Made by a program: the position numbers and the translations under genes
In this document: positions 43,490 through 64,000 of the stretch, piece after piece
How the letters are laid out: the number at the start of each line of letters is the position of its first letter
How positions within the stretch are numbered: the stretch's first letter is position 1
Notes under the pieces: generated by a model
The model's database searches: none
What the model was told of the DNA's origin: nothing
What the model saw: the letters and a program-made list of their open reading frames with translations, nothing else
Source of the DNA: Tubulanus polymorphus
Lineage: Eukaryota > Nemertea > Palaeonemertea > Tubulaniformes > Tubulanidae
Direction: 5' to 3'
Length of the DNA: 64,000 bases
Assembly (NCBI RefSeq): GCF_964204645.1
Contig: NC_134026.1
Coordinates: forward strand, 15,518,650-15,582,649

Positions 43490-44325
43490 GGATTGAATGC
43501 GGGATATCGACAAATTCAAGTTCTTGAATTACTCGTTTGATGGCGCTAGTCTGAACCGGAAATTGGAACCTAAATCCGCCATGTTCTAGTTCATTTGCAA
43601 TAAAAATCTCTCGCTTCAAGTTTTTAGTTAGCGATATTTTACTTACTATGCAACGGCACGCATAATCCTTTGAGTATGATATCCTGATAATGTGTTGAAT
43701 TCGATAAAACCTCACTTCAAACGCTAAAGATTACTTGAAATGTCAAAAAACTACCAAAAATAACAAATTTAGCGATGACGCTCGAAGCAGATAATGGAAG
43801 TAATGACTGGTGCCGGGTGTAATCACTTTGTTGTTGAGTTCAAGACTCTTAAGGTAAATTTATTGCAGGCAACACTGATAAATATGAAATAATATTATGA
43901 AATAAAATTGACTTTACAAGGACTAAACTCGTAGATTTATAATAAAAATATGAAAAGTACCAGGACTGGAACCAACAATCTTAATTGGGCCGTCAAGTGC
44001 CGCCACCATGTGATACCTGGCAACCAGTCTTTACATCGTCAGCCGTTGCAAAATGTTTTTTAATAATTCTAGGGCATTTATAGTGATTTCTAGCCTTTGC
44101 AGTGAGGTTTTATCATATCCAACGTAGCGGTAGGATAACATATTTCAAGGATTATGCGTGACGATATATAGTAAGTAAAATATCGCTCATTGAAAACTTG
44201 AAGCGAGAGATTTTCATTGCAAATGAACTAGAGCATGGCGGATTTAGGTTCAAATTTCCGGTTCTGACTAGCGCCATCAAACGAGTAATTCAAGAACTTG
44301 AATTTGTCGATATCCCGTATTGCGA
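43490..44325. mobile_element. Fold-back element with ~235-bp inverted arms
   Basis: Arms 43490-43730 and 44095-44325 are inverted copies, for example GATATCGACAAATTCAAG at 43503 against CTTGAATTTGTCGATATC at 44298. The arms differ by point changes and a small indel. The ~365-bp centre is non-coding. The open frames in both arms (43485-43715, 44198-44392) encode the same short peptide read from mirrored DNA, with no known domain. Confidence 0.82.
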
Positions 44326-45323: not shown

Positions 45324-45496
45324 GCAGCGGCGGTCCAGGATACCATGGAGGAGGTGCACAAATCCAAATAGGAGGGGGGGGGGGGGGTCTGAGGGTCCAA
45401 CCCCAGAAAATAGCAATTTGAATAGTGATTTTCAAACTTTCATGAACGATGCAGAACTGCCGCAAAAAAGCGCTGGTAATTGTAAACGACGACATA
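45324..45496. repeat. Left half of a small repeat split by the Polinton
   Basis: AGCAGCGGCGGTCCAGGATACC near 45324 is mirrored by CTCTGGATCCGCCGCTGATT at 63387-63406, just beyond the right Polinton end. The two may be the ends of a ~300-bp MITE into which the Polinton jumped. Includes a G-run of 15 at 45373-45387. Confidence 0.4.
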
Positions 45497-45592
45497 AGTA
45501 ATTAGAAATTGTGGCTTTCAGGCCAGAGGGCGAGAGGGCGAGACACCTCTCATCACCACAAGTAATTTTTTTTTCTTATAAATGGGAGAGAG
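45497..45592 (+). repeat. Left terminal inverted repeat of the Polinton
   Basis: About 95 bp, nearly identical to the reverse complement of 63176-63270, including GAGGGCGAGAGGGCGAGACA and CCTCTCATCACCACAA. It runs through TATAAATGGGAGA, so the repeat contains the promoter-like motif and the start codon of the gene reading inward. Confidence 0.95.
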
Positions 45593-48500
45593 TGAACAAC
45601 ATACAGAACAAATTGATGTTAATGAAAATCAATTTTATTGTACATATTGTAAAAAATACATTGATAAAACTCATAAAGCACGACATGAAAAAACCGTAAA
45701 TCATATAAAAAATGTTATAGATTTTGAAACTCCAGAAAATTCCAATGAAAGAAAAGAACGATTAGATGATATGAATGTGGATGAAATAAAATGTGAAGTT
45801 TGTCATGAATTTATAGTAAAAAGGAATTATAAAAGACATATCAAATCACAAAAACACCATCAAAATTTGAGTAATAATGTTTTAGGAATAGATTATTTCG
45901 GTGATAAACCTCAACAAGTAAAAAAACCAACTTCAAAAACTAAATCCATTTCAAATAAACCTTACATGGAAAATGTTAGAAATTATATCGATTCACTAGA
46001 AATAAAAGTTACAATTGAAATTTTAGAAACATTACATAGTTTAATTGGTCCTGCAGCCATTATATTTAGATTTTTTAAAGGTACAACAATAGAAGATTAT
46101 AGTAAGTTTAATGAAATAATGGGAAAAATACTAGATTTGATAACAGATGTTGAATATCCAAAAATTAGTATCTCTGGGAAAGTAAGTTTTTTAAAGTCAG
46201 AGGAGAAAATGGATTATAATATTCAAACACTCTCTGAAGAAATAATTTCAAAAACACAAATAAAAGAGAAGTTAGAAAAAATATTTAATGAATTTAAACG
46301 TCACATTGAAGAAAGATATTTTGAGGGTTCTGGTTTAACATTGAATGAAATTATATTTTTAGATTTAAATGATAATGTTACAAAAAGGAATAAAACATCA
46401 AAAAGTAAAACAATGTTTAAAACTGATCCAAACTTTACTACAGAAAAGGATATTAAAGCATCAAGTTATATCAAATTACCATTTACAACAAAAGCAGTAA
46501 TAAATGTTCAAAATGAAGATAATAAATGTTTTCCATGGTCAATTATTAGTTGCTTACATCCAACAGAAGAACATGTTTATAGAATAACAGATTACCGGAA
46601 ATATGAAACATTATATAAAATTGATCAATATCCAGTAACTATAAAAATGATAGTTAAGATAGAAAAAGTTAATAATTTTTTATAATAAATGTATTCGAAT
46701 TAATGTAATTACCAAAGACAAAAGGTGAAAATATTAAAGATTATACATTAGAAGCTTTATATTTAACAGAATATTATGATGATGAAAATGCTATAGATTT
46801 GTTATATTCAAAAAAGATGAAAATGAACATTATATGTGGTTAAAACAAATTGATTTATTCTTTAGAACAGAAAGTGATCATCATCGTAAAATTTATCTAT
46901 GTAGAAAATGTTTATCTAAATTTATGACTGAGAATACATTATTAAAACATAAAGAAGTATGTGACAATAAAGATTTTTGTAAATTAATAATGCCAACAAA
47001 AAAGATTGTAAGTTGAAATTTACTAATCATAAATTTAAAAATATTGTTCCATTTGTAATTTATGGAGATTTTGAATCGTTGATTAAAGAATTAACTGATC
47101 AAGATACAAAAGAAATATACAATAAAAAGCAATTTTTAAAATCAATGGATAAAGGAAATGAATTAAATGAAGACATAATTCAAGATCCACCAATTATAAA
47201 CACAATTTAAAAAGTTCATCAAAGAGCTGCTGCTTATGGAATTTTACATAAAGTCAAATTATCCTGAATTATATGAAAGTCAATATATTTCCTTTAGGTT
47301 AATGATTTTTGTAATGAAATAAATGAATTAGAAAGTGATTTTGCAAAATTATTGAACAAAAATAAAGGAATAGTTATGACAAAAGAAGATGAAATTCATT
47401 CTAATTATGCAACTCATTGTTGTTATTGTGAAAAACGTTTTTATTCATTTGATAAAAAAGAGATCATGATCATTTAAATTCAAAATACCGCGGAGCTGCT
47501 CATAAAGATTGTAATTTACAAGCTAAGAAAGTTAATTTCGTACCAATATTATTTCATAATTTATCAGGCTATGATACCCATCTATTTATAAAACAATTAT
47601 CGGGAAAATTGGGCGCAATTAATCAAGAAATAGAAGAATATAATGCTATGAATGGTGCAAATGTAAGGAAATATGATTTTAAACTATTAGCTAAGACATC
47701 TGAAAATTATTTTTCACTTCAATTTGGTTGCATTAGATTTTTAGATTCTTATAGATTTCTAGCAAGGTCATTAGATAATTTAGCAAACGTTTAGTTGATA
47801 ATGATTTTATAATAACTCAACATTATTATCCAAATGAACAATATTTTAAATTATTGAGATATAAAGGCGCAATTCCTTATTCATTTTATAAAACACATGA
47901 TGATTTTAATGTAACAGAATTATTAAAAGAACAATTTTATGATCAATTAAGAGGAGTATGTGAAAGATGAAGTGTTTAATAGAACATTAAATATTTGGGA
48001 TCACTTTAAGATAAAAAATCATGGTGAATTAGTAGATTTATATTTAAAATCAGATGTTGTGATATTGGCTGACATATTTGAAAAATTTAGAGAAGTTAAT
48101 TTGAAGTCCTGGTTTAACCTGACAATGTGGTTTAAAATATACAAATGTAGAATTAGATTTATTAAAAGAACCAGACATGGTTTTATTATTTGAAAAATCA
48201 ATAAGGGGGGGGGGGAATTAGTGGTGTTATGGGAGATAGACATTTTAAAGCAAATGATGAATATAAATTATTATATATTGACGCCAATAATTTATATGGT
48301 TAGGCAATGATGCAACCTCAACCATACAAAAATTTTATATTAACTGAAGTTGAAAATGATGATAAAACTGACTGGGAAAGCGCAATTACGAGTTTAAAAG
48401 ATGAAGCACCAATTGGTTATTTCTTTGTAGTTGATTTGGAATATCCTGATAACATAAAGTTTGAAACAAGAAATTTACCTTATTGCCCTGAACATTTAGC

Positions 48501-50567
48501 TGTAGATGATAGTTATCTAAGTGAATACCAGAAGAATATAAAACCGAAAGATCATGTTTTTACAGAAAAATTAATACTTACTCAAAATAATAAATACAAT
48601 TATATTGTTCATTATAGACTGTTAAAATTTTATCTAAAACAAGGATTGAAATTAAAGAAAGTACATAGATATATTGAATTTAATCAATCGAAGTGGTTAG
48701 AAAAATATATAGTTATTAATACTCAACAGAGAACCATATCAAAAACAGATTTTGAAAAAGATTTCTTCAAATTAATGAATAATAGTTTTTATGGTAAAAC
48801 ATGTGAAAATATTAGAAATAGAAATGATATTGAATTAGTAAATAATTCTGAAAGATTAAGACATTTACAATCAAGCCCTAGACATTTAGGAAATAAAAGA
48901 TTTGAAAATTATTTAACAGCAGTAAAATTAAAAAGAATGTCAATGAAATTTAATAAACCTATATTCATTGGTTCAACTGTTTTAGAAGTATCAAAATTAT
49001 TAATGTATGATTTTTATTATAATGTTTTACAACCACTTTTTGGGGAAAAACATATAGAAATCTTATATTTTGATTCTGTAACAGCTGACACCCCAATATT
49101 ATTAAAATGTAATGATAAAATATTGAACAAAATGAACGTTATATTTCATATGGTGAAACAGAATTAATACAAATAAATGGATTAATGGATGTTTGGACAA
49201 GAAATGGATGGAAAATATTAAAGAATATTATTAGGCATAAAACAAATAAGAAAATCCATAGAGTTAGAACTAAATTAGGGTTTGTATATGTTACAGAAGA
49301 TCATAGTTTAATTAAACGAAATGGTGATGAAATAAAACCAACTGATATAAAAATTGGGGATGAATTATTACATAAAAGATTTTTCCAAAGAATGAATCAT
49401 ATGTCATTTGATGAAATAATTGATAATATTTATAATATAGAACCCGAAACATTAGAAGAAAAAGAATATTTTATCGAAGGAATTTTTATGGGAAATGGTT
49501 CAGCAGGTGTGTATAATAGTGTTAGTGGAACTTAATATTGTTGGTATTTATGCGATCAAGATTTGAAATTATTAGAAAGAATTAAGAAATTCTGTGAAGA
49601 AGTTTACTCAAATAAAACATTTAGAATCATGGATGTTATGAAATCATCAGTAGTTTATAGAATACTCGTTAATAACCCTAAAGATTTTGCAATTAAATAT
49701 AAAGATGAATTCTATATTCATGCAACAGTTAAAAGTAATACTTCAACTAAAGAAAAGATAGTGCCAAATTATTTATTAAATGCAAAAGATGATTTAAGAA
49801 AATGGTTCTTCATTGGATTCAATGCTGCAGATGGTTCAAAAAGTTTCAAAAACCGCAAAACAATATCTTTAGCTCAAAAAGGAAAAGTTGCTATATCAGG
49901 ATTGAATATATTATGCAATTCATTAGGTTTTAATATGAATATTGGATTGATTAAATCTAAACCAAATTGTTTTAATTTAAGCCATGTAGAAAATGAGTTA
50001 ACTGAAGAAGTTAAAGATTTATTTGAAATATATAACCCATCAGATTATGTTTATGATTTATCAACTGAAGATGGAACATTTAACTGTGGATATTCATTAA
50101 TAGCGGTCAATACGGATGCCTACATACTAAAAATCAAGACAAATGACATAACAAAAGACTTAAAAACATTAAAACATCATTTTGATTTTAGCAATTATCC
50201 CAAAGATAATGAACTATTTAGCAATGATAATAAAAAGATTCCTGGTAAGTTTAAAGATGAATTAGGGGGTGATGAAATGATTGAATTTGTTGGGATAAGA
50301 AGTAAAATGTATAGTTATAGAACAAAAGATCATGAAGCTAAAAAGTTAAAAGGAATAACAAAACATGTGGTTGATAAACATATAGAATTTCAAGATTATA
50401 TAAAATGTTTATATAACTCATTTGTAATGAAACATAAAATGAATTGTTTAAGATCAGAAGATCACGAGATGTACATTAATGAAGTTGAAAAAACTAGTTT
50501 GAATCCATTCGATGATAAAAGATATATTTTGGGTGATGGAATAAAAACATTACCTTATGGTTATTAA
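45582..50567 (+). pseudogene. PolB: Protein-primed DNA polymerase B of the Polinton, split by an intein
   Basis: Replicates the element. Start ATG at 45582 inside the TIR. Two U1-type zinc fingers come first (C20/C23, C71/C74 with paired His), then the conserved KCFPWSIISCLHP block near 46545. Exonuclease motifs follow: YGDFES (47064-47081), LSGYDTHLF near 47565, and LKSDVVILADIF near 48050. Polymerase motifs: DANNLYG (48280-48300), KLMNNSFYG (near 48770) and the catalytic YxDTD, which is interrupted after its first Asp by the intein at 49075-50111. The C-terminal part ends with a DDKRYI block and TAA at 50567. Breaks: frameshifts near 46680, 46830, 47015, 47470, 47790, 47960 and 48110-48210 (a G-run at 48205-48215), a TAA near 47208 and a TAG at 48301-48303. 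It ends 4 bp into the convergent minus-strand gene. Confidence 0.95.
49075..50111 (+). other. Intein with LAGLIDADG homing endonuclease in PolB
   Basis: In-protein insertion of 1,037 nt (~346 codons). It starts with Ser in SVTADTPILL, the usual N-terminal splicing block, has TEDH at 49293-49304 (the TxxH block), and ends in DLSTEDGTFNCGYSLIAVN, with Asn last and Thr as the first residue after it. Splicing needs Ser, Asn and Thr in these places. The penultimate residue is Val, not the usual His. LAGLIDADG motifs are FIEGIFMGNGSAG (49470-49508) and WFFIGFNAADGSK (49803-49841). The insertion lies between the first Asp and the Thr of the YxDTD motif, the same point as the archaeal pol-c inteins. 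One frameshift near 49115-49125 and one TAA at 49533-49535 break it, so it can neither splice nor home now. Confidence 0.92.
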
Positions 50568-51877
50568 AACGTAAAATCAATATCATCATACTCGAAATCA
50601 CTACTGGTTTCTTCATTTTTATTTAATTGTTTAGGTTCTTGCATTTCATTTTTCTCATTTAAATAAAGTTCTATATTGTACCACATTTCATCTCGCTCTC
50701 TTTGTTTCTTTTTGTTTGTTAATTCATCAAATGGAATTATAATATCGATGTTTAAAAAATTTACAATCTTATTTCAAAAGAATTCATAATTAATTGAATC
50801 TATTATTCTATTATTTACATAATATCTTAATATTTTTTTGAATGTTTCTTTTATATTTTCCATATCTTCTTCTGTTAATTCAGGTTTTTTATAATAATCG
50901 TTAAATAATAGATGTAAATACATTTTCTTTCCTTGTGTGTTAAATGTTGATGGAATAATTGTTTTTATAATATCTTTCTTAGTTATTTCACCATTTTTAT
51001 TTTCTATCATTTTAATTTTTTCAAGCCATAGCGTATATTCTGGTGTATGATCTTCCATAGAAAATATCTTAAAAATTTCATCTAGATATTTTAATTTTGG
51101 TTCTATAAGAATATCTCTAGTTTTTTCATCACCCCATAAATTTTTTTGCCATCCACATTCATTACAAAATATCACAGGTCCTTCTTGTCTTAAGTGCCCA
51201 TAAATACATTGTGGGCATTTTTTTCTATCATTTCTTGGTAAAAGACCTTCATTAAGCTCTTGGTATTTTCTTACGTTTTCTTTATGTTTTATTGTTCTAT
51301 TATGTAGATTTGAATTACTTGTTGTAATAAACAATTTACAATATTTACAATAATATGTTTTTCTTACTAATTCATTATATTGTTTTTCCAACTTTTTAAG
51401 TGTTTCTTCATTATCTGGCAACGTTTTCTCATATTTTATTTTTTCTAATATTTTATTTTTTCTTTCATTGAATTCAGTTTCAAATTTATTAGAAATTTTA
51501 TCTATATGTGCTTTACGAAATTGATGATTCTCCCAATCTTCTATATTTTCAGGTCTATATTTTATTCGACAAGGCTCACAGAAATATTCTTTTATATTAT
51601 CCTTATTATAGAATAAGAAAGGTCTTTTCCAAATAATTTCAGATTCAACTTCAACAGAATTACTACTACTTTCGTTACTATCAACATTTACCGTTGTGTC
51701 ATTAATTTTACACTTCTCTGAATGTTTTTCAACATAATTTCTTGAGAATAATTTATTACAATTTGGGCAGTTTATTTTAAAGGGTTCATAATTTTTATCA
51801 TGTTTTTTCATATGTCGAGCCATATTACTTTTTCTTTGAAGTTCACCACAAATTTCACATGGTATCTTCTCATCCAT
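50564..51877 (-). pseudogene. Zinc-finger/zinc-ribbon protein, VLTF3-like candidate
   Basis: Starts at 51877. Order: C2H2-type fingers near residues 7-25 and 38-55 (CEIC, CPNC), further Cys/His pairs (CEPC with HQFRKAH; CKYC with HNRTIKH), then a zinc ribbon, CPQC...CNEC, near residues 220-245. After it comes a helical domain with YLHLLFNDYYKKPELT near residues 325-340 and INYEFF before a TGA at 50774-50776. The frame continues past this TGA with IVNFLNIDIIIPFDEL and DEMWYNIELYL to the TAA at 50564. Zinc ribbon plus this helical C-terminus is the architecture of the VLTF3-like late transcription factors of large cytoplasmic DNA viruses. That match is my reading of the pattern and was not tested. 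It converges on PolB with a 4-bp overlap and is divergent from the penton-like gene, 67 bp away. Confidence 0.6.
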
Positions 51878-51944
51878 TAATTTAGGAAAAAATTTATTAA
51901 AATTAATTTTTAGTGATGAGAGGAAATTTTTTGTGCTATAAATA

Positions 51945-52703
51945 ATGGGTGAATTAAAAGAATATATAATATTTGTTGATTCTAGAAGGCTTACAAATTA
52001 TAAATCACATAATTTATTGGTACAATTAGATAGAGAATTTAATAATTGTGTTGATTTAAAATTAGTAAATGTAAGTTTATGTAAATCATTTTACAATATA
52101 TCGAATAAAACTAATGAACATAGAGCCTTTTTAATTTTTAATAAAAATAAAAATGAATGGGCCTATATATATTTAAAACCGGGGTTATATAATTTAGATA
52201 CATTGGCACAAGAAATTAATAGAAAAGCCTGGCACAAGTCAGGTAATAATTCCGGGTTTAATATTAGATTTTTAAAAAGAGAGAGTTCTAACAAAATAAA
52301 GATAAGGTTGGCTGATATTGAAAAACATTAATTTATGGTAAAAAAACCTATAGCTAAACTGTTAGGAATTCCTCCAGATAAATCTTTTACAAATATTGAT
52401 GCAACACCAAACTTGATACCTTTTACACACTTTTATATTTATTGCAGTTTAATCGATCCTACAAAAACATTCGAAGCAACTAAAGATATAACTTGTAATT
52501 CTGGTTTATTAAACATTTTACCATTGAAGAATGTTAAAGAATTTGGAACGCAAATAAATTATAATTTAGCTGATTGTGATTTCAAACCATGCATTCCTAA
52601 ATTTAATAATTGTAGATTAGAAATTAGAAATCATAATGGATACTTAATTGATTTAAATAATTTCCCTGTTACTTATGAATTAATTATCAGATGTAGAGAG
52701 TAA
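51945..52703 (+). pseudogene. Penton-type minor capsid protein candidate
   Basis: One frame of 252 codons with a single TAA at 52329-52331. The N-terminal half (YIIFVDSRRLTNYKSHNLLVQL) and the C-terminal half (LIPFTHFYIYCSLID, then NCRLEIRNHNGYLIDL and FPVTYELIIR) are rich in beta-strand patterns. The layout and length fit the single-jelly-roll penton proteins that fill vertices of Polinton and virophage capsids. The start motif is TATAAATAATG. Assignment rests on position and strand pattern, not on a search. Confidence 0.55.
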
Positions 52704-52718
52704 TTTTTTGATATATAA

Positions 52719-53060
52719 ATGAATATAACAGTAGGGCCGAGTATATGTTTTGGGTTTGATTATAAACATGGTAAAAAAATTAGAATTAAACTAAATGATG
52801 TAATTACTGATATTAAAAGTAAATCATTTAATAATGTATCAATGATTAATAAAGAAAATTATATTATAGAAAAAGTAATTGATTTAATTAAAACACCTTT
52901 AGAATATTATGAATTAAATGAAGATGGAATTATCGATGATATTAAAAACATATTATCCAAAATATATGATAATCATAAAACTAATAATACTATAAATGTT
53001 GAAATAATCATAAATAAGATAACTGATTATTTTGAAGATAGTAATTTCTTTTCTAAATAA
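52719..53060 (+). CDS. Polinton hypothetical protein, 113 residues
   Basis: Intact frame starting at a TATATAAATG motif and ending directly before the next start (TAA then ATG). Mixed strand/helix pattern, Ile- and Asn-rich, no transmembrane segment, no motif recognised. Confidence 0.8.
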   Translation: MNITVGPSICFGFDYKHGKKIRIKLNDVITDIKSKSFNNVSMINKENYIIEKVIDLIKTPLEYYELNEDGIIDDIKNILSKIYDNHKTNNTINVEIIINKITDYFEDSNFFSK

Positions 53061-53282
53061 ATGGCGGATCAGAAGTGGAACATAACTGGATTATATAATG
53101 GAGCATTACTATCAGTTGGAACTGTTGGTTATTCAATGGTATTAAAAAAAGTATTTAAAATGGGAAGTTTTAATGTTGATAGATTTGATATAAATGATAT
53201 TTTAAAATTAACGCTAGCAGTTACTTTATCTAATGTAACTGTTGATTATTTGGAAAAACAAAACTATATTCCTCCTATATAA
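53061..53282 (+). CDS. Small Polinton membrane protein, 73 residues
   Basis: Intact. A glycine-rich hydrophobic segment (GALLSVGTVGYSMVL) and a second moderately hydrophobic one (LKLTLAVTLSNVTVDYL) suggest membrane or virion association. I recall the motif LYNGALLSVGTVGY from other animal Polintons. Starts one base after the stop of the previous gene, within AAATAAATG. Confidence 0.8.
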   Translation: MADQKWNITGLYNGALLSVGTVGYSMVLKKVFKMGSFNVDRFDINDILKLTLAVTLSNVTVDYLEKQNYIPPI

Positions 53283-53306
53283 ATACCTAATTTTTTTATT
53301 AAATAA

Positions 53307-53708
53307 ATGGCATCTGCAATTATAACTATTATAGGATCGGCAATTGTTAACGCTTTAGCATTTACTGGTGGTGGATATTTGTTTGAGCATATTGATAAAA
53401 ATAGTTCATTAGCAGAACAAAGAAGACATAACTTAGCGTCAGAAAAATATAATAAAGCTGCAGAAGAATATAGAGAAAAGAGACAAAATTACATGGATTA
53501 TATTAACAAAGAATTATATGATCAGAAGATTTCACATAGGGATTTTCAATCAGTTGATGATGCAATGAGTTTATATAACGCAGTAACAAATAAAGAAAAA
53601 TTACATCTATACAAACCTAAATTATCGGATTATTATACCCCAAGTAAAGAACAACAGAAATATGAAATAATGTGGATTTTAGGTGGAACAGTTATTGTTT
53701 ATTTGTAG
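53307..53708 (+). CDS. Conserved Polinton protein, 133 residues, N- and C-terminal hydrophobic segments
   Basis: Intact. Hydrophobic N-terminus (IITIIGSAIVNALAFTGGGYLF), a charged coiled-coil-like middle (residues 30-70) and a LSDYYTPSKEQQKYE block before a hydrophobic end. This layout is widely conserved among animal Polintons as I recall; its role is unknown, probably a virion or membrane component. Start motif AAATAAATG. Confidence 0.85.
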   Translation: MASAIITIIGSAIVNALAFTGGGYLFEHIDKNSSLAEQRRHNLASEKYNKAAEEYREKRQNYMDYINKELYDQKISHRDFQSVDDAMSLYNAVTNKEKLHLYKPKLSDYYTPSKEQQKYEIMWILGGTVIVYL

Positions 53709-53747
53709 CATATAAATTTACTAATTAGTAATTTTTTTGCTAAATAA

Positions 53748-54161
53748 ATGGATGATGAAGTTGATAATAATGATATTATTCCTCATGATATAAATAAAAC
53801 TAAATTAAAAACATATTTAGAAAAACAAACATTAGAATTTGAAATGACTTAAAGATTAAAAAAAAATATATATTATTTTATTATTAGTGGTTCAGTTACA
53901 ATTAGTTCTGTAATAACATTTCTAGCAATATTCAGTCCATTAACACCTTTAGCTATATCAATTGGTGTGCTAGGATTATCATCAAGTGTTTTAACTGGTA
54001 TAAGTTCAAAATTGAATATAAAAAGTAATAAACAAAAAATTAAAACTAATATAAAAGAAATTAATAAATTAAAAAATACACTAGATTATAAAATGAGTTT
54101 AAATGGTCATATAACAGTTGAAGAACAGGACAAATTATTAAAAGAATTAATGAATTATTAA
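53748..54161 (+). pseudogene. Polinton two-helix membrane protein, one stop
   Basis: From the ATG at 53748 (AAATAAATG motif) the frame is interrupted by TAA at 53850-53852 and then continues in the same frame to 54161. After the stop come two hydrophobic helices (YYFIISGSVTISSVITFLAI and LAISIGVLGLSSSVLTGIS), a basic helix and a conserved-looking ITVEEQDKLLKEL end. Probably a small membrane protein of the virion; function unknown. Confidence 0.75.
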
Positions 54162-54178
54162 TTTTTTTTATTATATAA

Positions 54179-55510
54179 ATGGTAGATAGTTTTCCAAAAG
54201 CTTTCCAATATAATAAATCGATTAAATATAATATTCCAGCAATAGATCTTAATAAAGATATTTCATATGGAAATGAAGTTTTCGATTCATTAATTAATTT
54301 AGATATTTATGTTACTGAAACTAATAATTTTAATGCAAAGATGGAAAATATATTTCATGTGTATACAATTAATTTTAAAAATCTAAATGAGGCAAAACAA
54401 TGGTTATTAAAATCTAATATGAAGTATTGGCAGAACCAATTAAATTTTGCTGTTTATTGCGCAACAACAGGGTGCGGTATAAGTTGGAATGATCATTTAA
54501 ATAAACCAAGTTTACCATTGCTATTATCACTTTTTAGATTTCATACATATTTTCAAATAAAATTAATGAATGAAATTAGAATGTCCTTTACCAGGTTCAA
54601 AATATTTTAAACAATTGGATAATAATATCAATTTTTCTAAGTCTTATAAAATATGTAATGAATTTGATATTAATTTGTCTATTAATGATTTTAGAGCAAA
54701 AATTGGAACAATGGGTGGATTAGGAATATTATATACTAAAGAATTTGGTAAAATAATAGCAAATTCAGATATAAGAATACTAAATTGGAATGAATTACCA
54801 AAATATTATAATAATATACAACAAAAAAATAATGGTTGGATTAATTTCATTTTAGATAATATTGAAGGTTTTACAAAATCAGGTATACAAAGAATAAATC
54901 AATCTATTAGAACTTATTTGATATGTGTTTTGGAAATGATAACACTTCATTTGATGCGCAGAAACAATTTAAAGTTTTATTTGAAGATTTCATACATATT
55001 GATAAAAATAGATCGATTCCAGAAAACATAGTTAGGTACCAAAATTATTTAGATAAATCACATATTAGATTAAATTATTGTATAGGCCCTAATCTATTAA
55101 TTATTTCTAATGATTTAGTATTAAAGATGGGAAATATAATTGGTTATAATAATTTAATTAAGACTGCAACAATAAATAATTCATTTGGATTGAATGATAT
55201 AAATAAAACGATTATTACTGCTCCAAAATTAATGGAAGGTGAAAACATTAAAAAACATTTTCAATCAACAGAAACTAAAACTAAGAATATTAAATAAAAT
55301 AATGATTCTAAAATAAAAGATTACAATACTACAGAAAATGGTGCCGTACGGCACCCACACGGTGATATAAAAACTGATATTATTCAACATGACATAATTA
55401 AAACTGATAATGATGATAAATCTCATGAAAATACTAAATTAGCTATTACTTGTATAGGAATTGTAATAGAAGGAATATTATATTTTAAATTTTATTTTTT
55501 TTATTATGTA
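54179..55510 (+). pseudogene. Conserved Polinton protein with C-terminal anchor, frameshifted
   Basis: Start at TATATAAATG. Blocks in order: CATTGCGISWNDHLNKPS (near 54457), CPLPGSKYF in another frame (from about 54580), TMGGLGILY (near 54708), GWINFILDNIEGFTKSGIQR (54835-54895) and SFDAQKQFKVLFEDF (near 54950) back in the first frame. A TAA stands at 55295-55297, and the same frame continues with a HENTKLAITCIGIVIEG membrane-like segment (55425-55475). I recall this block order from a conserved Polinton gene, likely structural, function unproven. Frameshifts near 54575 and 54915. Confidence 0.8.
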
Positions 55511-55511
55511 A

Positions 55512-56932
55512 ATGGAAGTAGAAGGTGGAGAAGATTATGAAATGGGAGAAATGGGAAATAATAATGATGGGTATATTGATGATGATTATAATGATGCTGA
55601 AACTAATATTGATAATGATAATGAAACAGCATATAATTCTAATTTAGCAGATAGTGGTTCTAAAGACCCATCAACAGATGAATTTGATAGAAGAACTAAA
55701 TCGAGAATAAATCCTGAAAATCCAGATTTAGTAAAACAAAATTTAGAATATAATGAATATATTTATAATTTTAAACCTATATTTGAAAGATCTGGGTATA
55801 ATATAAATGCCAGAGGCGCCAGACTTTTAGTAACAGAATTAAAATCTTTAGATGGTGAATATTATTATCATTTGAAAGATGATTATTATATTAATATCAC
55901 TTATAAGAATCAAAATAAAATATTAGCAGAATCAACTTTGAGTAATTTAGAATCATCTAGAATTAAAAGAATAAGTAATAGCAATGAAATATAAAATGTA
56001 ACACAAGAAGAAGTAAATCAAAATAAAAGAGTATTTAAACAAAGAATTGATAATTATTTGAAACAATCAATGATAATTTAGAAACAGAAACAACTTCTGA
56101 ACATATAACTTCCAAAACTAGTAAACTTAAATCAAATAAAGTTCCAATTGAAAAACTTTTACTAAATGGGTTACTTGACGCAACAGATCAAGAATTAGAT
56201 ATATTTTCTGATAAAGCAATTAGAGAAATTATTAGTATAAGACTTGCATCTGATAAAATTGCGCATGATAAAAGTATAAGAGATTTTAAAATTAGAAAAA
56301 GATAGAACTGATAAAATTAAGGAAATAGAACAATTGAAATTAGAAAGATAATAAAGTTATTGAAGAAATTGAATTTAAAAAAAGAAATGCATATTTAGAA
56401 AAAGAAAAAGATGATTTAGAATATAACATAGAATTTCAGAAAGAAGAAATTAAATTATTAAAAAAATCACATGATTATAATATTAATAGATTAAAAGTTA
56501 TTTTTAAAGATTTGTTGATAAAACCAAATTCTGAAATATCATTAAAAGATAGAATAAAATTATAATTTAAACTAGAAGGTATAACAATTCTTTCAATTCT
56601 AACAGCTGTAACTATGTTATTTACAATAATTGGTTTAGCTATTTCAATTTCATTAAAATCCACGCCTACACCCAATAAACTGGATAAACCACCAAATAAT
56701 AATTTATACAAGATAAAGTGAAAGATGGTTTAAAAAAATTAGCAAAATATTTATGGGAACTATCTAAAAAATCTGCCGCAGCTTCACCCGGAGTTATAGC
56801 GTCAATTGTTGGTTTTATATTGAAATCTGCAGGAAGTATTATTAACTTTGCTGCTGAACATATTATTTTATTTTTAATTACAATTGTTAGTGCTATTATT
56901 TTTGGGTTAGTGAATATGATAAAAAATAAATA
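55512..56932 (+). pseudogene. Polinton acidic coiled-coil protein with C-terminal membrane helices, broken
   Basis: Starts at 55512 (TATGTAAATG) with a strongly acidic, Asn/Asp/Glu-rich first 60 residues, then NARGARLLVTELKSLDGEYYY. A TAA at 55992-55994 is followed in frame by more coding sequence. Further pieces in other frames are a LNGLLDATDQELD helix (near 56165), a long charged coiled coil (56340-56520), and after 56560 hydrophobic helices (ITILSILTAVTMLFTIIGLA and, near 56770-56930, AAASPGVIASIVGFILKSAG then ILFLITIVSAIIFGLV). The order acidic head, coiled coil, Ala/Gly-rich amphipathic and membrane segments is typical of a conserved Polinton protein thought to be virion-associated. At least four breaks. 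Confidence 0.75.
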
Positions 56933-56953
56933 ATCAATTTTTTTATTAAATAA

Positions 56954-58201
56954 ATGAGTGGGAGTTATATAAATCCTTCTAAGAATTCTAGAATATCTAA
57001 TGCTATTAAAGCAGAGAGATCTCATCATATAATTACTCATAATCCTTCTAATATTAATCCTGATGAAACATTATATGTTAGAATCCCGAGATTAAATCAA
57101 AATACTTTTTATGTTCCAAATAGTATTTATTTATCAGCTGATATAAAAGTAACTTGTCATGATGATAATTATGTTGTAGATAATGTTGGAAGATATTTGA
57201 TTAAAACATTAACTATAAAGATTAGACCAGAAACAGTTTTCTCATTAGATGATTATAATTTATTTATGCATTATAAAGATGTATGGTTAACAAAAGAAAA
57301 TAGAAATAATATGATATTTCAAGGCATCCAATCAGAAAATCAAAATAAATTAAGATCTGAAGCTAATAATGCAGTAGTAACTAATGCTGTAGATAATTTA
57401 ATCAAAAAGATTTATGGAAGCAAATACCAAATTCCGTTAGACTTTGAATTGATAAATAATAATGCACCTTTGTATAAATACGCAATTCAAGAAGATATTA
57501 TATTCGAAATAACATTTGCTCCTGTTAATGAAATTGTATTATCAAGCGTAGTTAAAGATATGGGTTATAAATTATCGAATATATGTTTAGAATATGATAC
57601 AGTATCTGATGAAAATATTGCTAACACAATTCAAACTCAATACAATCAAGGATTTTCATTATTATATGATTACATTGATAAATTTAAAACTGTAACTATT
57701 AATGCAAATGAAGAAATAATTAACGAGAATATTAACTTCCCAAGGAGATCTACTAAAGGCGAATTAATATTCTTTACCATTGCAACATTTCTAATGGCGC
57801 AATAAATGTTGATGATTATTATAATCCTGAAATATCAAAAGTAGAAATAACAATTGAAGGTATAGCAAATAAAATATTTTGTCAGAGAATGAGAATGATA
57901 GATCAGTGGCCAGAAATTAGAAAACATTTTATGAATGAAAGAAATAAATCATCTGAAAATTGTAATATTAATCAAATTGATTATTATACCGGCAATAAAT
58001 ATGGATTATGGTTAGATTTTAGAACAACAGAGGATAATTCATTACGTGGTTCTGGGAAAAAGCTGCAGAATACTAAAGATGGGATACAATTATTCATGAA
58101 AAAGAAGAAAGGAATCAAAAAATTTCAAAATGCACATTTATATTATATCTGACGCGCAATTAAATATTATAAATTCTCAATTAGATAGTATTCAATATTA
58201 G
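56954..58201 (+). pseudogene. MCP: Double-jelly-roll major capsid protein of the Polinton, frameshifted
   Basis: Starts at AAATAAATG. The N-terminal part has HNPSNINPDETLYVRIPRL, then SIYLSADIKVT, and a MIFQGIQSENQNKLRSEA block near 57310-57360, followed by KYQIPLDFELIN; these match the conserved blocks of Polinton major capsid proteins. The second half (from about 57795) is in another frame and includes YGLWLDFRTTEDNSLRGSG near 57998-58055; the last 16 codons are in a third frame, ending with TAG at 58199-58201. Frameshifts near 57795 and 58145. The protein would form the icosahedral shell; this copy cannot. Confidence 0.88.
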
Positions 58202-58231
58202 AAATATTAAGTTAAAATTAACGATATATAA

Positions 58232-59294
58232 ATGGGTGTTAAAAAAACTCCTAATACTAAAGAACAATAATTAAGAAATTTATATTACAACCCTGGGAGT
58301 TCGGTTGCTTATTCTTCTACCAAAAATATATGGCGTCAAGTAAAACAAGATAAATTAGATAAGATAATCCCACAAAATTTAGTTAAATATAATGATATAA
58401 ATGATTTTATGTTAGAACAGCCAACATATACAACACATAAAAAAATTGTTAGAAAATATAAAACTCGTAAAACTATGGTAAGTTATGTAGATCAACAGTG
58501 GCAAGGAGATTTAATTGATATGAAAAATGTTAAGAAAGATAATGATGATTATTGGTGGATATTAAATATGATTGATATTTTTAGTCGTTATGTATGGAGC
58601 TTCCCACTTTATAGAAAAGATGATGTACAAACATCAAATGTTTTAAGAAAATTTCTTTCGGATGATAAACTAAAACCAGAAAAAATACAATTTGATGATG
58701 GAAAAGAGTTTGATAATTCACTTGTTCATGAACTCTTAGATAATCATAATATTAAATATTTTTCAACAAAATCGGATAAAAAAGCAGCAGTTGTTGAACG
58801 ATTTAATAGAACATTAAGAACAAGAATGTGGAAATATTTTACAGCAAATAATACTTTTAAATGGATTGATGTTTTACCAAAATTGATAGAAGGATATAAT
58901 AATTTTTATCATTCTTCTAATTTATATGGAGCATTTCTTGTAGATGATTTTGGTGAACCTAAATTTAAAGTTGGTCAAAATGTTAGAATTTCTAAGTATA
59001 AAAAGATATTTGACAAAGGATACGATCGATTTTACTAGGGAAATATATAAAAGGTTATAACAACAAAACCATATGTCTATAAATTAGAAGATTTAAATGG
59101 TGAAGATTATTGATGGGTATTTTTATGAAGAAGAATTGAGTTTAACTACTGAAAACCTAGAACAAGAATATAAAATTGAAAAAGTATTAAAAACAAAAAC
59201 TATTAAAAGAAAAAAATATTCTTTAGTAAAATGGGTTGGATGGCCAGATAAATTTAATGAATGGATATTATCAAGTAAAATTAAAAATATATAA
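58232..59294 (+). pseudogene. INT: Polinton integrase with C-terminal chromodomain, broken
   Basis: Start at TATATAAATG (58232); TAA at codon 13 (58268-58270), then in frame a SVAYSSTKNIWRQV block. Numbered from 58409, catalytic residues are D34 (WQGDLIDM), D96 (FDDGKEF) and E130 (VVERFNRT), with the usual DDE spacing. After the core, VGQNVRISKYKK is the SH3-like part. A TAG at 59036-59038, a further stop and a frameshift separate the last piece (59097-59294), which has YKIEKVLKTK and YSLVKWVGWPDKFNEWI, a chromodomain that would read histone marks. The chromodomain piece ends one base before the ATPase start. Sequence between the core and the SH3-like part looks shortened. Confidence 0.9.
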
Positions 59295-59549
59295 ATGAAT
59301 AAGGAATTATTTATATTTGAACCTCATAATGTGTTAATTTCTGGTGTAACAAATTGTGGAAAAACTTATTTTATATCAAATTTATTAGAAACTATTTATA
59401 AAAACTATTTTGATAATATAGTATTATTTTGTCCAACATATGAATTAAATCAAACTTATGATATAATATTACTAGAAATAATAAATTTATTATATTAGAT
59501 CCTAAAACAGTTAAAGAAAATTTAGATGATTGTATTAAAATAGCAATTG

Positions 59550-59627
<78 letters not shown>

Positions 59628-59976
59628 GTATAAAAGATCTAATACATTATTTATCATAGATTATTGTGTTAATCTACATGATTCAAAAGTTAGAGAAAGT
59701 GAGTTATGCTATTTAGCTTTTTCTGGGAGACATTTTGGGATAACAACATGGGTTTTAAATCAAAAATATAATTCAATTGTTAAAGATTTTAGAGAAATTA
59801 TTAGATTTTTAGTTTTATTCTACAATAAAGATAGGAAATCGATGAAAAATGCACTTGAGGAAAATGATATTATTCCGCATGATTTACATAATGAATATAT
59901 GGATAAATTGAAAAATAATAAAAGATCAAATTTACTATTTCGATTACAACACCCATTTAAATATGAATTCATTTAA
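59295..59976 (+). pseudogene. ATPase: Polinton FtsK/A32-type packaging ATPase, with a (TA)n insertion
   Basis: Starts at TATATAAATG, directly after the chromodomain stop. Walker A is SGVTNCGKT (residues 16-24). After FCPTYELN a frameshift near 59475 occurs, the next 25 codons are in another frame, and then a microsatellite of about 85 bp fills the middle. The second half (from about 59635) carries the Walker B strand TLFIIDYC, where the residue after the Asp is Tyr, then LAFSGRHFGITTWVLNQKYN and the sensor-like region. Known: this ATPase packages DNA into capsids in Polintons and relatives. Here it is broken by both shift and insertion. Confidence 0.88.
59546..59632. repeat. (TA)n/(TGTA)n microsatellite inside the ATPase gene
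   Basis: TA repeats interrupted by TGTA, ending in four ATGT/GTAT units. Located between conserved blocks of the ATPase, so it expanded after the gene was lost or caused its loss. Confidence 0.95.
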
Positions 59977-59979
59977 ACT

Positions 59980-60180
59980 CAACTAGCTTGTTAATCTAGT
60001 ATATTTTTAGTTACATTCTAGTTGAAATCTCGTTATTGGTAGTTGAAACAAAAATCAAATAAAATTCAACAAAAAATAAATAAAAATAACAATATTTCAA
60101 CTAGCTTGTTAATCTATTATGTGTTTAGTTACATTCTAGTTGAATTCTAGTTGAATTCTAGTTGCAACAACACAACTAAT
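59980..60180. repeat. Direct repeats between ATPase and next gene
   Basis: CAACTAGCTTGTTAATCTA occurs at 59980 and 60100, each followed by GTTACATTCTAGTTGAA; TTCTAGTTGAA repeats several more times. Non-coding spacer of the Polinton. Confidence 0.85.
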
Positions 60181-60195
60181 TTGTTTGTTATATAA

Positions 60196-60700
60196 ATGGG
60201 AGGTGAAAAGAAAATAAAATCTAAAAATAGTGATGTTCCAATTGAAAAAACTTTAGATGATTTAGGAATATTAGAAACAAAATTAACTCCAGATGATGGT
60301 TCTTTAAATGATATTACCACAAATAATAATTATGAATATTTTCTTTATTGCAAAAATCAATTAGAAATATTAATAGCATCTGGGAAATGTAAAAATTTTA
60401 TCGGTAAAAATTTAACTTATAATGAATTAGATACAATGAAATCAGATGAAATTGTTAGATTATTTAAGATTTAATTTTAGAACCGCGAGAACAGCTAGAA
60501 TTAATTATGTAAATATATGCTACCAATTCAAGATAAAAATAAATTATATTCCGATTTAAAAAATGATTATTTAGTTATGGCTGAATTAAATAAATGGATT
60601 GGATATTTATCATTTCAATTAGGCGGATTTATGACATTATTATCAACTGGAGTTATAACATTTTCAAATATTGGAAGTAAAAATTTTTCTATAATAAATG
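60196..60700 (+). pseudogene. Conserved Polinton protein of unknown role, broken in the middle
   Basis: Begins at TATATAAATG. The first piece (92 codons) has EYFLYCKNQLEILIASGKCKNFIGKNLTYNEL. The second piece, from about 60517, has KLYSDLKNDYLVMAELNKW and a Gly/Leu/Thr-rich hydrophobic end (FQLGGFMTLLSTGVITFSNI). Between them, 60475-60516 contains several stops, so an indel or small rearrangement lies there. I recall both blocks together in one animal Polinton protein. The end suggests membrane association. Confidence 0.7.
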
Positions 60701-61053
60701 AGCGAAGTGCGAGAGGTGAAGGAATTAGCTGTGAAGAAAAAACCGAGAACTCCGAACCAAGTTGAATGGTCTCGGCAATTAGGAATTAAATCACAAGAAT
60801 ATAAAAAAGCTGTAAAAGAAAAAATAAATAATGAAAACGTTAATAAAAATGGTGAAAATATTGTTATTTCTACTTCTTCTAATAATAGAATATTTAATAT
60901 CTATATTTTACAACTGGATTTGTAATTGTATTCATTTTGATTGGGTGTAGTTGGTATAAGAAATCAAATAAAATTTATGATATTAATAATTCTGAAACTA
61001 CTGCTATTAAAAATGAAAATACTTCTGAAATTCCAAAATTCACAATGAAATAA
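60698..61053 (+). pseudogene. Small Polinton protein with one membrane helix, frameshifted
   Basis: Start at AATAAATG (60698). Basic N-terminal part (VKKKPRTPNQVEWSRQLGIKSQEYKKA), then after a frameshift near 60905 a single membrane helix (GFVIVFILIGCSWYKK) and a polar tail ending at TAA 61051-61053. Function unknown. Confidence 0.65.
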
Positions 61054-62858
61054 AATGGATTAATATTTCAGAAAAAAAGCAAAAAAAAAAAATTTTTAGC
61101 GAACCTATGGTTCGCTTCTTATGCCAACGGTCTAGTTGGCCTTGTGCCAATATTGCTAGAAAGTGATGTTAATAAGCCACATTTTGAAACGGTGATAGAC
61201 CCGGTCGTATTTCTTGTTGCAGATGATTCAAATAGCCACTGTATTTTCGAATAAACACTCGCTATTGTGCGAATTTCGTTGCGATGTGATCGATCTACGC
61301 TGTAAAATTTTAGATAATTAGAAAATTTCCTTAGCTTTTATATAGTTTGACATGACCTGGAATAACCTAAGTCATGAATAATAATTAGCAGATGCGCATG
61401 CGCTTAACACTGCGTAGAATGACAGGTGGATCCTCGCTAAAATAGATCCATTTTGTAAAATATCAAGCTGTGTATTGTCGATTACTGTTAAGAAAACAAA
61501 TGGCGGAAAAGCACGTTACATTTTTATACTTTGGTCACTGATCGACACTAGAAATAAGAGTACCGTCGACGTCAAGATACTCGAAGAAACCGTAGCGTAT
61601 TAACTTCCACCAGTCGTCGGGTATGGTACATGTACGAGGGAGGGAGGTAAGTCTTCAGTTTCTCCTGATGAATTAACGAATCACAATGTATATCCAATAA
61701 AAAGACCTTCATTTTTTCATGACTGGACCTCGTTTGTAAAAAAAATGCCTGCTGAATCGGAATACAAACTTCTTTCAGCTATATCGTTTGCCCCTATAGG
61801 TTATTAGGAGAAAAAAAAAAAACTTCCACCCCTCCACTTTTTACTCAATGGATTTGCTGGCCTTGCGATTGCGCAATACCGATTAATGATGGCAGCACCA
61901 GCTTGCCAATTGAAAGCTCTCCACATTTTCGGCTGTCCCTGAAGCTATTTTAATAGCGAATGTGCGATTACTGAATTATTTCCGAAAAAAGTTATAACAA
62001 CATAATTAAAGACCTGATTTAGCGATATGAACGGTGGGTTTGAATTGCTTTGTCTTCTTATCTGTCGCTACAATGCGTGTTTGTGCATGAAAACAGTTTC
62101 TTCAATGATTTTGATAGAACATTGCACAGGCTTTTAAAACATTTCTTGAGGGTGGCCAGGCTGAAATTTCGAGATGATACGAACGAACTTAATATTCAGC
62201 GTAATTTAGCAACTCGCGATATTTGGTCATTAATTAGTTTGCTGGGGCAATGGAATACAGAAGCATCAGTAAAACATATATTGTCCTCTTGTTTAGGTAA
62301 TGATCTGGCGAGTAGCAGTCATTAAACTTATAACGAAAATTACGACGTTCACGGGAAACCATAACCTAGATACACGTACGACGGAACATCTGAACTATTC
62401 AAGATTCCAGTTATTGTAAAAAAATTAGCTTTTTATTTTGCAAAAAAATAAAACATTTTATTTTATATGAAGTGTTACCTCTCTATCTCACAGTTCTTTG
62501 TCAACTAAGTTTTGATTATTACCCCCCCCCCCCTCCGCCCCAATTTCAAATGCAAAGTTCAATGTTACCCAGGATTGACTGGTAAGATTAACAATGCCAG
62601 ACTTAATCTCTCGATGAGATCTTCCTGACCAATTACTTATTGGGACCAGGTCAGCAGCCACTTCTTTGAAAGCATATTTCGCCTTCTTCCTTTTACTTCT
62701 CAAATTATCATATCGGTGAGCTTCTGGGCCATTGGTCCTTTATTTTTGATTAATTGAATATCTCACTACTTTTGACTATCTACGCGGAGCAATTAAATTG
62801 TCCACATAAGTCATTTCGGATTCTAGATATACATTATTTTTATTATTTTATTTTTTAT
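61054..62858. other. 1.8-kb stretch without Polinton genes, probable insertion
   Basis: More GC-rich than the rest of the Polinton and free of its gene pattern. It opens with an A-run and two adjacent hairpins, AGCGAACCTATGGTTCGCT (61098-61116) and GCCAACGGTCTAGTTGGC (61123-61140), related to a motif at 36150. Open frames at 62050-62325 and 62488-62703 (the latter ending in a C-run) have no known domain. Ends near the stop of the last Polinton gene. No target duplication or inverted ends were found to prove a nested transposon. Confidence 0.5.
61098..61140. repeat. Paired hairpins shared with 36.15 kb
   Basis: Two short perfect palindromes with 3- and 6-base loops in tandem. The counterpart at about 36150-36190 (GGCGAACCGTAGGTTTGCC, then AACGGTCTTGTG) is partly degraded. 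Suggests a dispersed repeat end. Confidence 0.65.
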
Positions 62859-63185
62859 TTAATCAAAAATTTCTAAATCATGATGACCGTCTTCATTTTT
62901 TGCATGATAGATTATTTTAAATCCTTCTAAATCTTTTAATTCCTCTATACTCAATGAAACCCATTTATCAGGTAAAAATACTTTAAATTCTCGCGTTGTA
63001 CTAACACTACAGTAACTTAAATTCGCTGATACTTTCTCTCTATATTTAGTTTTTATCTTTTCGAATTTCAATATTTTATGTTCAATTTCTTTTGTAACAT
63101 CGACTAACTTTTTTATTTCAAATTGTTTTTTTGCTGGTTTTTTTCTGTTATTTATTGTTGCTAAGAATGCTTTTCTATCTCCCAT
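62859..63185 (-). CDS. Right-end Polinton protein, 108 residues
   Basis: Intact frame starting inside the right TIR (MGDRKAFLATINN), mirror to the PolB start in the left TIR (MGE...). Basic N-terminal half with a KKQFEIKKLVDVTKEIEHKILKFEKI helix, then a strand-rich C-terminal half (REFKVFLPDKWVSLSIEELKDL). A decayed relative is at about 14555. No family recognised; the conserved position at the element end suggests a role in replication or regulation. Confidence 0.85.
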   Translation of the reverse strand: MGDRKAFLATINNRKKPAKKQFEIKKLVDVTKEIEHKILKFEKIKTKYREKVSANLSYCSVSTTREFKVFLPDKWVSLSIEELKDLEGFKIIYHAKNEDGHHDLEIFD

Positions 63186-63270
63186 TTATTAGGGGAAAAA
63201 ATTATTTGTGGTGATGAGAGGTGTCTCGCCCTCTCGCCCTCTGGGCTGAAAGCCACAATTTCTAATTACT
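63176..63270 (-). repeat. Right terminal inverted repeat of the Polinton
   Basis: Reverse complement of the left TIR with about five differences (for example GCCCAGAGG for GGCCAGAGG). Ends ...CTAATTACT, followed by the GACATA duplication. Confidence 0.95.
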
Positions 63271-64000
63271 GACATAAGTTTACACATTTTCTGGGATTTT
63301 CACATGGTTGTCATCGTTCTCACGAAAAGGTCATTCCATGAAAAATTACCGAGGACTTTAGGGGGTGCACGTGCCCCCTGTGCACCCTCTGGATCCGCCG
63401 CTGATTAGATTGCCAAGTAGTGAGTGCCACCATTCAGTACCTAAGCAAATGTAATCGCTTGTTCATTTACGAGACTGAGATCAATGGTTCCCTGTCTTGA
63501 CTGTCCCAAATGATATGTTTTTTAAATGTGACTATATAAAAAATATCAGTCTATTATTTGAAGAAATATCCCTTCGTATGATTTGTAAACATTATTAAGA
63601 TAGGTTTGCTATACCTGTATTTTCGAATAAAGCTATTCATATCAAAGAATGCTACACAAAGAATGCTACGTATATGTGAGCGAAGATATGATACCATAAT
63701 CCAGTTCCTGAGACAGTATACTCATCCCTGGGGGAATGAACAATAACTCTTTCTCACACTCTGATAAGCCAATAGGCGATCTTCATAAAGTCACGGGTAA
63801 TGTGAAATAAAGAAAAAAAAACTATCGAATATTGGTACATGAATCAATTGAAGAAATTACGACGAGTAAGAGAAAAGGAACGTTTTTTAACGTTCGTTTT
63901 CTTTTCACTATTGCAATGGCTTTGCACCACAATAAAATGCCATCCGCAGAGTTTTGCTAAGCTGTTGTTAAGACAGCTGAGAGAAATTCAATTTCAACCA
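63271..64000. other. Flanking DNA right of the Polinton
   Basis: Starts with the right GACATA copy. 63387-63406 mirrors the sequence at 45324 left of the Polinton. Nothing coding seen to the window end. Confidence 0.5.

Follow-up and report, generated by a model that had tools for sequence, protein, structure and literature searches.

A decayed pol-c intein in the DNA polymerase of a Polinton of Tubulanus polymorphus, and its probable movement between Polinton subfamilies

A pol-c intein in motif C of a Polinton polymerase

The DNA considered here, referred to as the window, is a stretch of 64,000 nucleotides (nt) from the nemertean Tubulanus polymorphus (contig NC_134026.1, positions 15,518,650 to 15,582,649). 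It contains a decayed Polinton whose protein-primed DNA polymerase gene is interrupted by an intein (Table 1). The insertion point lies between the D and the T of YxDTD, motif C of the polymerase, with Ser1 following YFD and the final Asn preceding TDAYIL. An initial annotation, made from the sequence letters, had proposed an intein in the catalytic motif of a Polinton polymerase, and this is confirmed: frame, motifs and flanks are present, profile and fold matches agree, the ends of the element were located, and the segment is a class-1 intein of the pol-c type. The TEDH sequence (block B, TxxH) is present in the window and unvarying across the seven sequences of set A2. Taken singly, the window intein pieces scored below Pfam cut-offs. 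The anticipated Hint and LAGLIDADG similarity was found with L018, an intact relative from the same genome, which passed the cut-off for PF14528 and matched PF14890 with an E value of 8.7e-7, under the curated cut-off. The predicted fold (Hint) fits solved inteins, PI-PkoII best of all. An intron, too, could contain a frame change and a stop such as those seen in the window copy, and a normal polymerase insertion or a spliceosomal intron might be considered on that ground; both are ruled out by an open frame under selection and by the intein fold, and we give them next to no weight.

The window copy is itself a pseudogene, with a 28-nt deletion, a stop codon and a changed first LAGLIDADG motif. 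Its GNG leaves it short of the two motifs with both acidic residues expected of a LAGLIDADG enzyme, GDG and ADG being found in 23 copies that are open through the intein. The first intein residue is Ser in the window and in 22 of these 23 copies. The remaining copy, L043, has an open frame with Ile in place of Ser1, from which the start of splicing is expected to be impossible.

The terminal inverted repeats of the element are 96 nt long and 93% complementary, and the 7% of differing positions are consistent with an old insertion. A polymerase piece at 47501-47791 matched PF03175 just short of the cut-off (E 9.6e-6, 25.2 bits, cut-off 25.8). P0122, a relative from a metagenome, matched the same family with 62.3 bits, and its flanks match the window exteins at 54% and 60% identity. 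A PHROGs search returned weak integrase and terminase matches and little besides, and Pfam and PHROGs searches of the Polinton gave no match to capsid families. The element also encodes, on the minus strand, a 367-amino-acid (aa) protein with a U1-type zinc finger (50777-51877; PF06220, 33.3 bits). Just outside it lies an inverted repeat (43496-44321) with 265-nt arms, 85% complementary, around a 296-nt spacer. Elsewhere in the window are remnants of retroelement integrase and reverse transcriptase (31-1257 and 7395-8192) and a rhodopsin-type receptor gene.

Table 1. Features of the intein and of the Polinton that carries it (window positions; a dot marks features given without strand)
Feature	Position	Strand	Remarks
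Polinton (Maverick), 17,774 base pairs (bp), decayed	45497..63270	+	terminal inverted repeats AGTAATTAG...CTAATTACT, GACATA on both sides
Target site duplication GACATA, 6 bp, left copy	45491..45496	.	
Target site duplication GACATA, 6 bp, right copy	63271..63276	.	
Left terminal inverted repeat, 96 nt	45497..45592	+	
Right terminal inverted repeat, 96 nt	63175..63270	-	
Protein-primed polymerase, N-terminal part	45582..48306	+	frameshifts and stops; start not settled
N-extein adjoining intein, ending YFD	48307..49074	+	open frame
Intein, class 1, pol-c site, Ser1 to Asn	49075..50111	+	intact relatives: about 355 aa
28-nt deletion and frame change region, window copy	49125..49160	+	1037 nt vs 1065 in intact copies
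Block B, TEDH	49293..49304	+	
First LAGLIDADG-type motif, GIFMGNG in window copy	49479..49502	+	GDG in intact copies
In-frame stop TAA in endonuclease part	49533..49535	+	
Second LAGLIDADG-type motif, FIGFNAADG	49809..49835	+	
C-terminal splicing block VYDLSTEDGTFNCGYSLIAVN	50049..50111	+	
C-extein, starts TDAYIL	50112..50567	+	
C-side half-site, 3 codons	50112..50120	+	unusually high variation in filled as well as empty copies of this genome
Retrovirus-type integrase	58409..59035	+	PF00665 40.5 bits, cut-off 32.6
Packaging ATPase, weak match	59614..59973	+	PF04665 18.1 bits, cut-off 22.8; phrog_2666 terminase E 1.4e-4

Filled and empty sites, selection and movement between subfamilies

The genome assembly totals 267.8 Mb, with 77 contigs of which 12 are the size of chromosomes; a search for the Wnt family gave 39 matches, all above the cut-off, with several gene-like clusters. 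The arthropod cuticle family PF00379 gave 0 matches, a result of little weight since its controls were silent as well. All copy numbers reported here for the intein and its sites are lower bounds. A search with the second intein piece yielded 485 candidates, 150 of which were scored, all with E < 1e-102 and 82-100% identity. These copies lie on the 12 large contigs and on contigs C18 and C28; contamination was ruled out by their presence on all 12 largest contigs. Intact copies were sought elsewhere in the genome and found: 11 of the 150 lie in open reading frames (ORFs) of 1686-1690 aa with no stop within the match. An exact pattern for the N-terminal intein junction occurred 270 times (reversed control, 0). 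Empty sites of the same family are also present, 586 by exact patterns: 254 with TCN or GCN as third codon (first pattern; control, 2) and 332 more with AGT or AGC (second pattern; control, 4). One of 30 loci fetched from the first set, L047, was other than this polymerase. On contig C4, two same-strand N-junctions about 1.1 kb apart (10056808 and 10057949) perhaps reflect a partial tandem duplication of the polymerase.

Two polymerase subfamilies were searched for, subfamily A with the window N-extein and subfamily B with the N-extein of an empty copy, each query giving 148 scored matches. The A places are 92-100% identical to the window N-extein. On contigs C1-C3, 36 of 41 A places were filled, one was empty and four fitted no pattern, while all 36 B places were empty; the first pattern identified 19 of them and the second the other 17 (the latter read by eye, one being offset by 8 bases). 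Some fifty B frames, counted by eye, measure 1350-1359 aa, close to the length of A minus the intein. With a slash marking the splice junction, the window copy reads N/T, and 47 of 49 filled A copies read N/TD, the remaining two being D/TD and N/TN.

The intein and its flanks evolve under purifying selection. In 22 copies with an open intein, the ratio of nonsynonymous to synonymous polymorphism (pN/pS) was 0.237 for the intein (bootstrap 0.182-0.312), with 0.183 for the Hint part and 0.269 for the endonuclease. The exteins of the same copies gave 0.073 (N) and 0.160 (C), and those of 18 empty B copies, all from the first pattern, 0.112 and 0.089, with intervals that overlap those of the filled copies. 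That the exteins of filled copies are constrained suggests that a working polymerase was made from filled genes in the recent past, for which splicing would be needed, and the constraint on the endonuclease suggests that it has been useful to the intein. The inserts could instead never have been spliced, the filled polymerases being dead and replicated in trans by the intein-free subfamily. Class-1 inteins usually have a penultimate His, which is common, not universal, and a His in the preceding block; both are missing in the copies of this genome examined, and many copies are broken, 35 of 58 filled loci (56 places) carrying a stop in the first 350 residues. Against such dead inserts stand the constrained exteins and the existence of full-length open frames, and we consider them very improbable. 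The Val before the final Asn, which the initial annotation had called unusual, does not stand out: the residue at this position is Val, Lys, Phe, Ala or Leu in sister copies (His in the relatives P0008, P0009 and P0123), and many related inteins in PF00136 polymerases read IVKN/TDS, a penultimate Lys being common among them, which also argues against inserts that never spliced.

Movement of the intein between virus-like elements had also been proposed, and is supported by trees, synonymous distances and flanking sequence. The intein and the polymerase gene differ in history. The filled copies do not form one clade in a phylogeny of 76 N-exteins from 51 filled and 25 empty copies (approximately unbiased test, p 8.4e-10); the best tree has four changes between filled and empty states, two of them forced by starred branches, and a quick tree of 83 rows has five. 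Two filled copies, L096 and L087, are placed in B and one empty copy, L070, in A, across a split supported at 100/100. For L096, the N- and C-exteins have median synonymous differences of 0.575 and 0.719 from 22 A copies and of 0.249 and 0.258 from 18 B copies; for its intein the figure against A is 0.231. Compared with L020, its N-extein exceeds its intein by 0.384 (0.275-0.495). L087 shows the same pattern more weakly (0.374 to A for the intein; for the N- and C-exteins, 0.575 and 0.649 to A against 0.374 and 0.494 to B). When the flanks were divided into bins of 48 bases (n = 26), 23 bins of L096 were nearest B and 3 equal; of L087, 20 were nearest B and 3 equal. The foreign stretch in L096 is the intein alone, as far as the flanks tell. 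Its half-site, ACTGACAGT, is frequent among filled A copies and among empty sites, and we therefore make no claim of a co-converted flank; an earlier reading of 9 nt of A-type flank in this copy was dropped after the second empty-site pattern, with its AGT and AGC Ser codons. L070, an A-subfamily polymerase with an empty site, has the half-site commonest in filled copies, ACTGACGCC, and may represent a precise loss or an allele that was never invaded.

Homing or gene conversion accounts for the filled copies in B and for the differing histories of intein and host gene. Vertical inheritance with Polintons, assuming a passenger endonuclease and a likeness between subfamilies produced by ordinary ectopic gene conversion, has in its favour a mosaic of intein parts among 27 filled pairs with N-exteins at least 99% identical (median identity 0.953 for the intein, 0.990 for the C-extein). 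In one such pair, L033 and L034, the N-extein (765/765) and the first 355 intein bases are identical while the endonuclease part differs at up to 23 of 71 bases. We nevertheless regard a passenger endonuclease as unlikely, given the purifying selection on the endonuclease, the confinement of the foreign stretch in L096 to the intein, and the fact that B is otherwise empty in all places on the three contigs surveyed.

Several observations weigh against an active, mobile intein. Gene conversion without the endonuclease could yield the same pattern; where exactly L096, L087 and L070 belong inside their subfamilies is weakly to moderately supported; 3 flank bins of L087 are nearest A; and filled copies in B number just two among 20 filled loci (L077-L096) from the junction list, both broken. 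To these come the missing histidines, and the fact that we infer splicing and cleavage from sequence, splicing being supported indirectly, through selection.

Variation of the endonuclease and of its half-site

Amino-acid diversity in the 22 open copies peaks at residues 157-164 (0.317) and 264-275 (0.365), directly after the LAGLIDADG helices, which themselves show values of 0.012 and 0.028. In LAGLIDADG enzymes the stretches after the helices lead into DNA-binding hairpins. With L018:2269-3333 for reference, intein residues 157-164 and 264-275 vary as swapped modules between otherwise near-identical copies. On the DNA side, the three codons after the intein have a diversity of 0.266 per base in the 49 filled A copies, against 0.048 in codons 4-30; changes are synonymous at codon 1 and, but for one copy, at codon 2, and codon 3 encodes Ala or Ser in 47 of the 49. 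This 9-nt half-site differs in 19 of the 27 near-identical pairs. Empty sites, typed in the first 100 places of each pattern's list, vary at the same codons with few synonymous types, mostly ACA/ACC GAT TCT for the first pattern and ACT/ACC GAC AGT for the second. The view that the half-site is variable in filled but not in empty copies was dropped, the first pattern having left out the Ser codons AGT and AGC; the low diversity at codons 1-3 in 23 empty B copies (0.036) results from the make-up of this pattern.

Endonuclease residues show a weak association with the half-site, with mixed results. Across 47 copies, the first endonuclease module co-varied with the half-site (partial Mantel r 0.113, p 0.022), and the second and third modules and the intein end showed no co-variation with it (p 0.93-0.999). 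In residue-by-codon associations, which were made post hoc with statistics that ignore relatedness, the strongest sites for AGT/GCC and for GCC/GCG at the third codon were residues 157 and 162, both in the first module (p 1.6e-4 among 110 sites and 2.3e-4 among 109). When AGT was compared with all GC codons, residue 202 was best (p 8.4e-5 of 159 sites) and residue 157 sixth; for half-site codons 1 and 2, no first-module site was stronger than p 0.0071. A mask of DNA-facing strands was equalled in diversity by 1 of 200 rotations; this mask was drawn after the variable residues were known and includes loop 264-273. Predicted strands alone were no more variable than chance (0.111 vs 0.089, 67/200 rotations as high), which weakens the proposal that the diversity is located in DNA-facing strands.

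Shifts in target recognition may lie behind the variation in endonuclease and half-site; alternatively, it may stem from recombination among the many copies or from mutagenic repair at the cut site. Rather tentatively, a contest within one genome can be envisaged, though an unlikely one, in which synonymous recoding of the half-site would protect polymerase genes and exchanged endonuclease modules would regain recoded sites. The recoded types cited for it, among them ACA GAT TCT, ACC GAT TCT, ACT GAC AGT and ACC GAC AGT, occur in filled and empty copies alike, and ACT GAC GCC is a further variant present at empty sites; variable half-sites are not special to filled copies, and this and the negative test on strands alone speak against such a contest. 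If it were true, it would represent a stepwise accommodation of recognition, as proposed for pol-c inteins crossing distant hosts (Ogata 2005).

Relatives, origin and meaning of the intein

With the L018 intein as query, a region search returned 312 matches, the best 120 of which were examined. Nine among the matches listed were assigned to Polinton-type polymerases. The closest, P0122 (1693 aa, on a 12,969-base metagenome contig), is 65% identical across the whole intein, and the others (P0207, P0123-P0126 and P0130-P0132) are 41-51% identical to L018. Eight of the nine match the window N-extein at 41-54% identity (E < 1e-52); P0125 is without such a match but has PF03175. The remaining listed relatives are mostly PF00136 polymerases, together with nine topoisomerases. 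One record, P0223, named DNA polymerase delta and from the green alga Chloropicon primus, has an intein at the same site. Searching with the second intein piece plus C-extein (best 120 of 299) revealed three matches with an intein end at the site, P0001 (75% identity), P0008 and P0009, and 44 with an uninterrupted Yx[DG]TD, two further pattern matches being false; the first intein piece found one match, P0121, with an intein start after IIYGD.

In a quick, unrooted tree of 120 inteins, a sample separate from the named archaeal and Mimivirus inteins, 13 Polinton rows (8 from databases, 5 from this genome) form one clade with a Shimodaira-Hasegawa-like approximate likelihood ratio support of 100, nested among PF00136 inteins of the same site. 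This nesting between polymerase families again fits the proposed movement between virus-like elements. A single entry into Polintons followed by spread among them would be the simplest reading, with the direction being our inference. The PF00136 hosts of related inteins we take to be mostly giant viruses. Scans of viral contigs found 8 and 58 loci with related inteins, and no giant-virus hallmark gene was found among the ten neighbouring ORFs scanned on them.

PI-PkoII, an archaeal polymerase intein (PDB 2cw7), is the best sequence-profile and fold match to the T. polymorphus intein, with 22% identity over 310 aligned residues, and is the larger of the two (537 residues). The host of PI-PkoII is a polymerase, with its intein in the same motif. 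Jeong in 2023 reportedly described HNH and VSR insertions in polinton polymerases. The PolB of Mimivirus carries a pol-c intein at YGD/TDS, having the same catalytic residues, and shares with the present one the insertion point, the first Ser, the last Asn, the following Thr and the Thr and His of block B (Ogata 2005, PMC549080). The Mimivirus host is a eukaryotic-type PolB of a giant virus, in contrast to a protein-primed Polinton polymerase present in hundreds of copies on animal chromosomes with empty sites alongside. The protein-primed PolBs (pPolBs) of polintons contain diverse homing endonuclease domains, suggesting intein invasions (Krupovic 2024 preprint, PMC11071308, citing Jeong 2023); the passage on polinton pPolBs names no LAGLIDADG intein at motif C. 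A survey counted 257 inteins from 231 species of eukaryotes and 136 from 98 viruses, reported them from fungal nuclear genomes, algal chloroplasts and viruses, and proposed intragenomic transfer and exchange with double-stranded DNA viruses (Green 2018, PMC5784728). In the portions of that survey bearing on the question, the largest example per genome is three inteins and animals appear only with Hedgehog and Hint domains, in contrast to the hundreds of copies here. The pol-c intein is already known; within the portions of literature covered by our search, we recognised no description of a LAGLIDADG intein at motif C of animal Polintons, and found neither Polinton hosts at this site, nor such copy number, nor recent movement in an animal.

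We consider it highly probable that the window holds a decayed copy of a mobile class-1 pol-c intein, with Hint and two-motif LAGLIDADG endonuclease parts, that was amplified in Polintons and moved between their subfamilies. Its mechanism would comprise splicing, cleavage and homing, with giant viruses as the putative donor pool. Intact sister copies would encode a precursor polymerase of about 1688 aa. Excision of the intein and rejoining of YFD/TD would be the work of Ser1, the TEDH block, the final Asn and the C-extein Thr. Alleles that lack the intein would be cleaved by the endonuclease at the same site and would gain a copy of it through repair. The increase to at least 150 copies would have come about mostly through the spread of carrier Polintons, as the single large filled clade suggests, while homing or gene conversion would have carried the intein between subfamilies, as trees and synonymous distances indicate. 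It probably entered Polintons once, from the pol-c intein pool of PF00136 family-B polymerases.

It has been proposed that serial transfers with gradual accommodation of recognition spread inteins, and that DNA viruses are their reservoir (PMC549080). If the reading given here is correct, animal chromosomes harbour a homing intein, with hundreds of copies next to empty sites; its signs of movement between related elements are of a kind best known in microbes and giant viruses. One genome would then hold, as a natural population, variants of both the endonuclease and its target, which would allow a direct test of intein crossing between distant polymerases, and of DNA viruses and virus-like elements as an intein reservoir.
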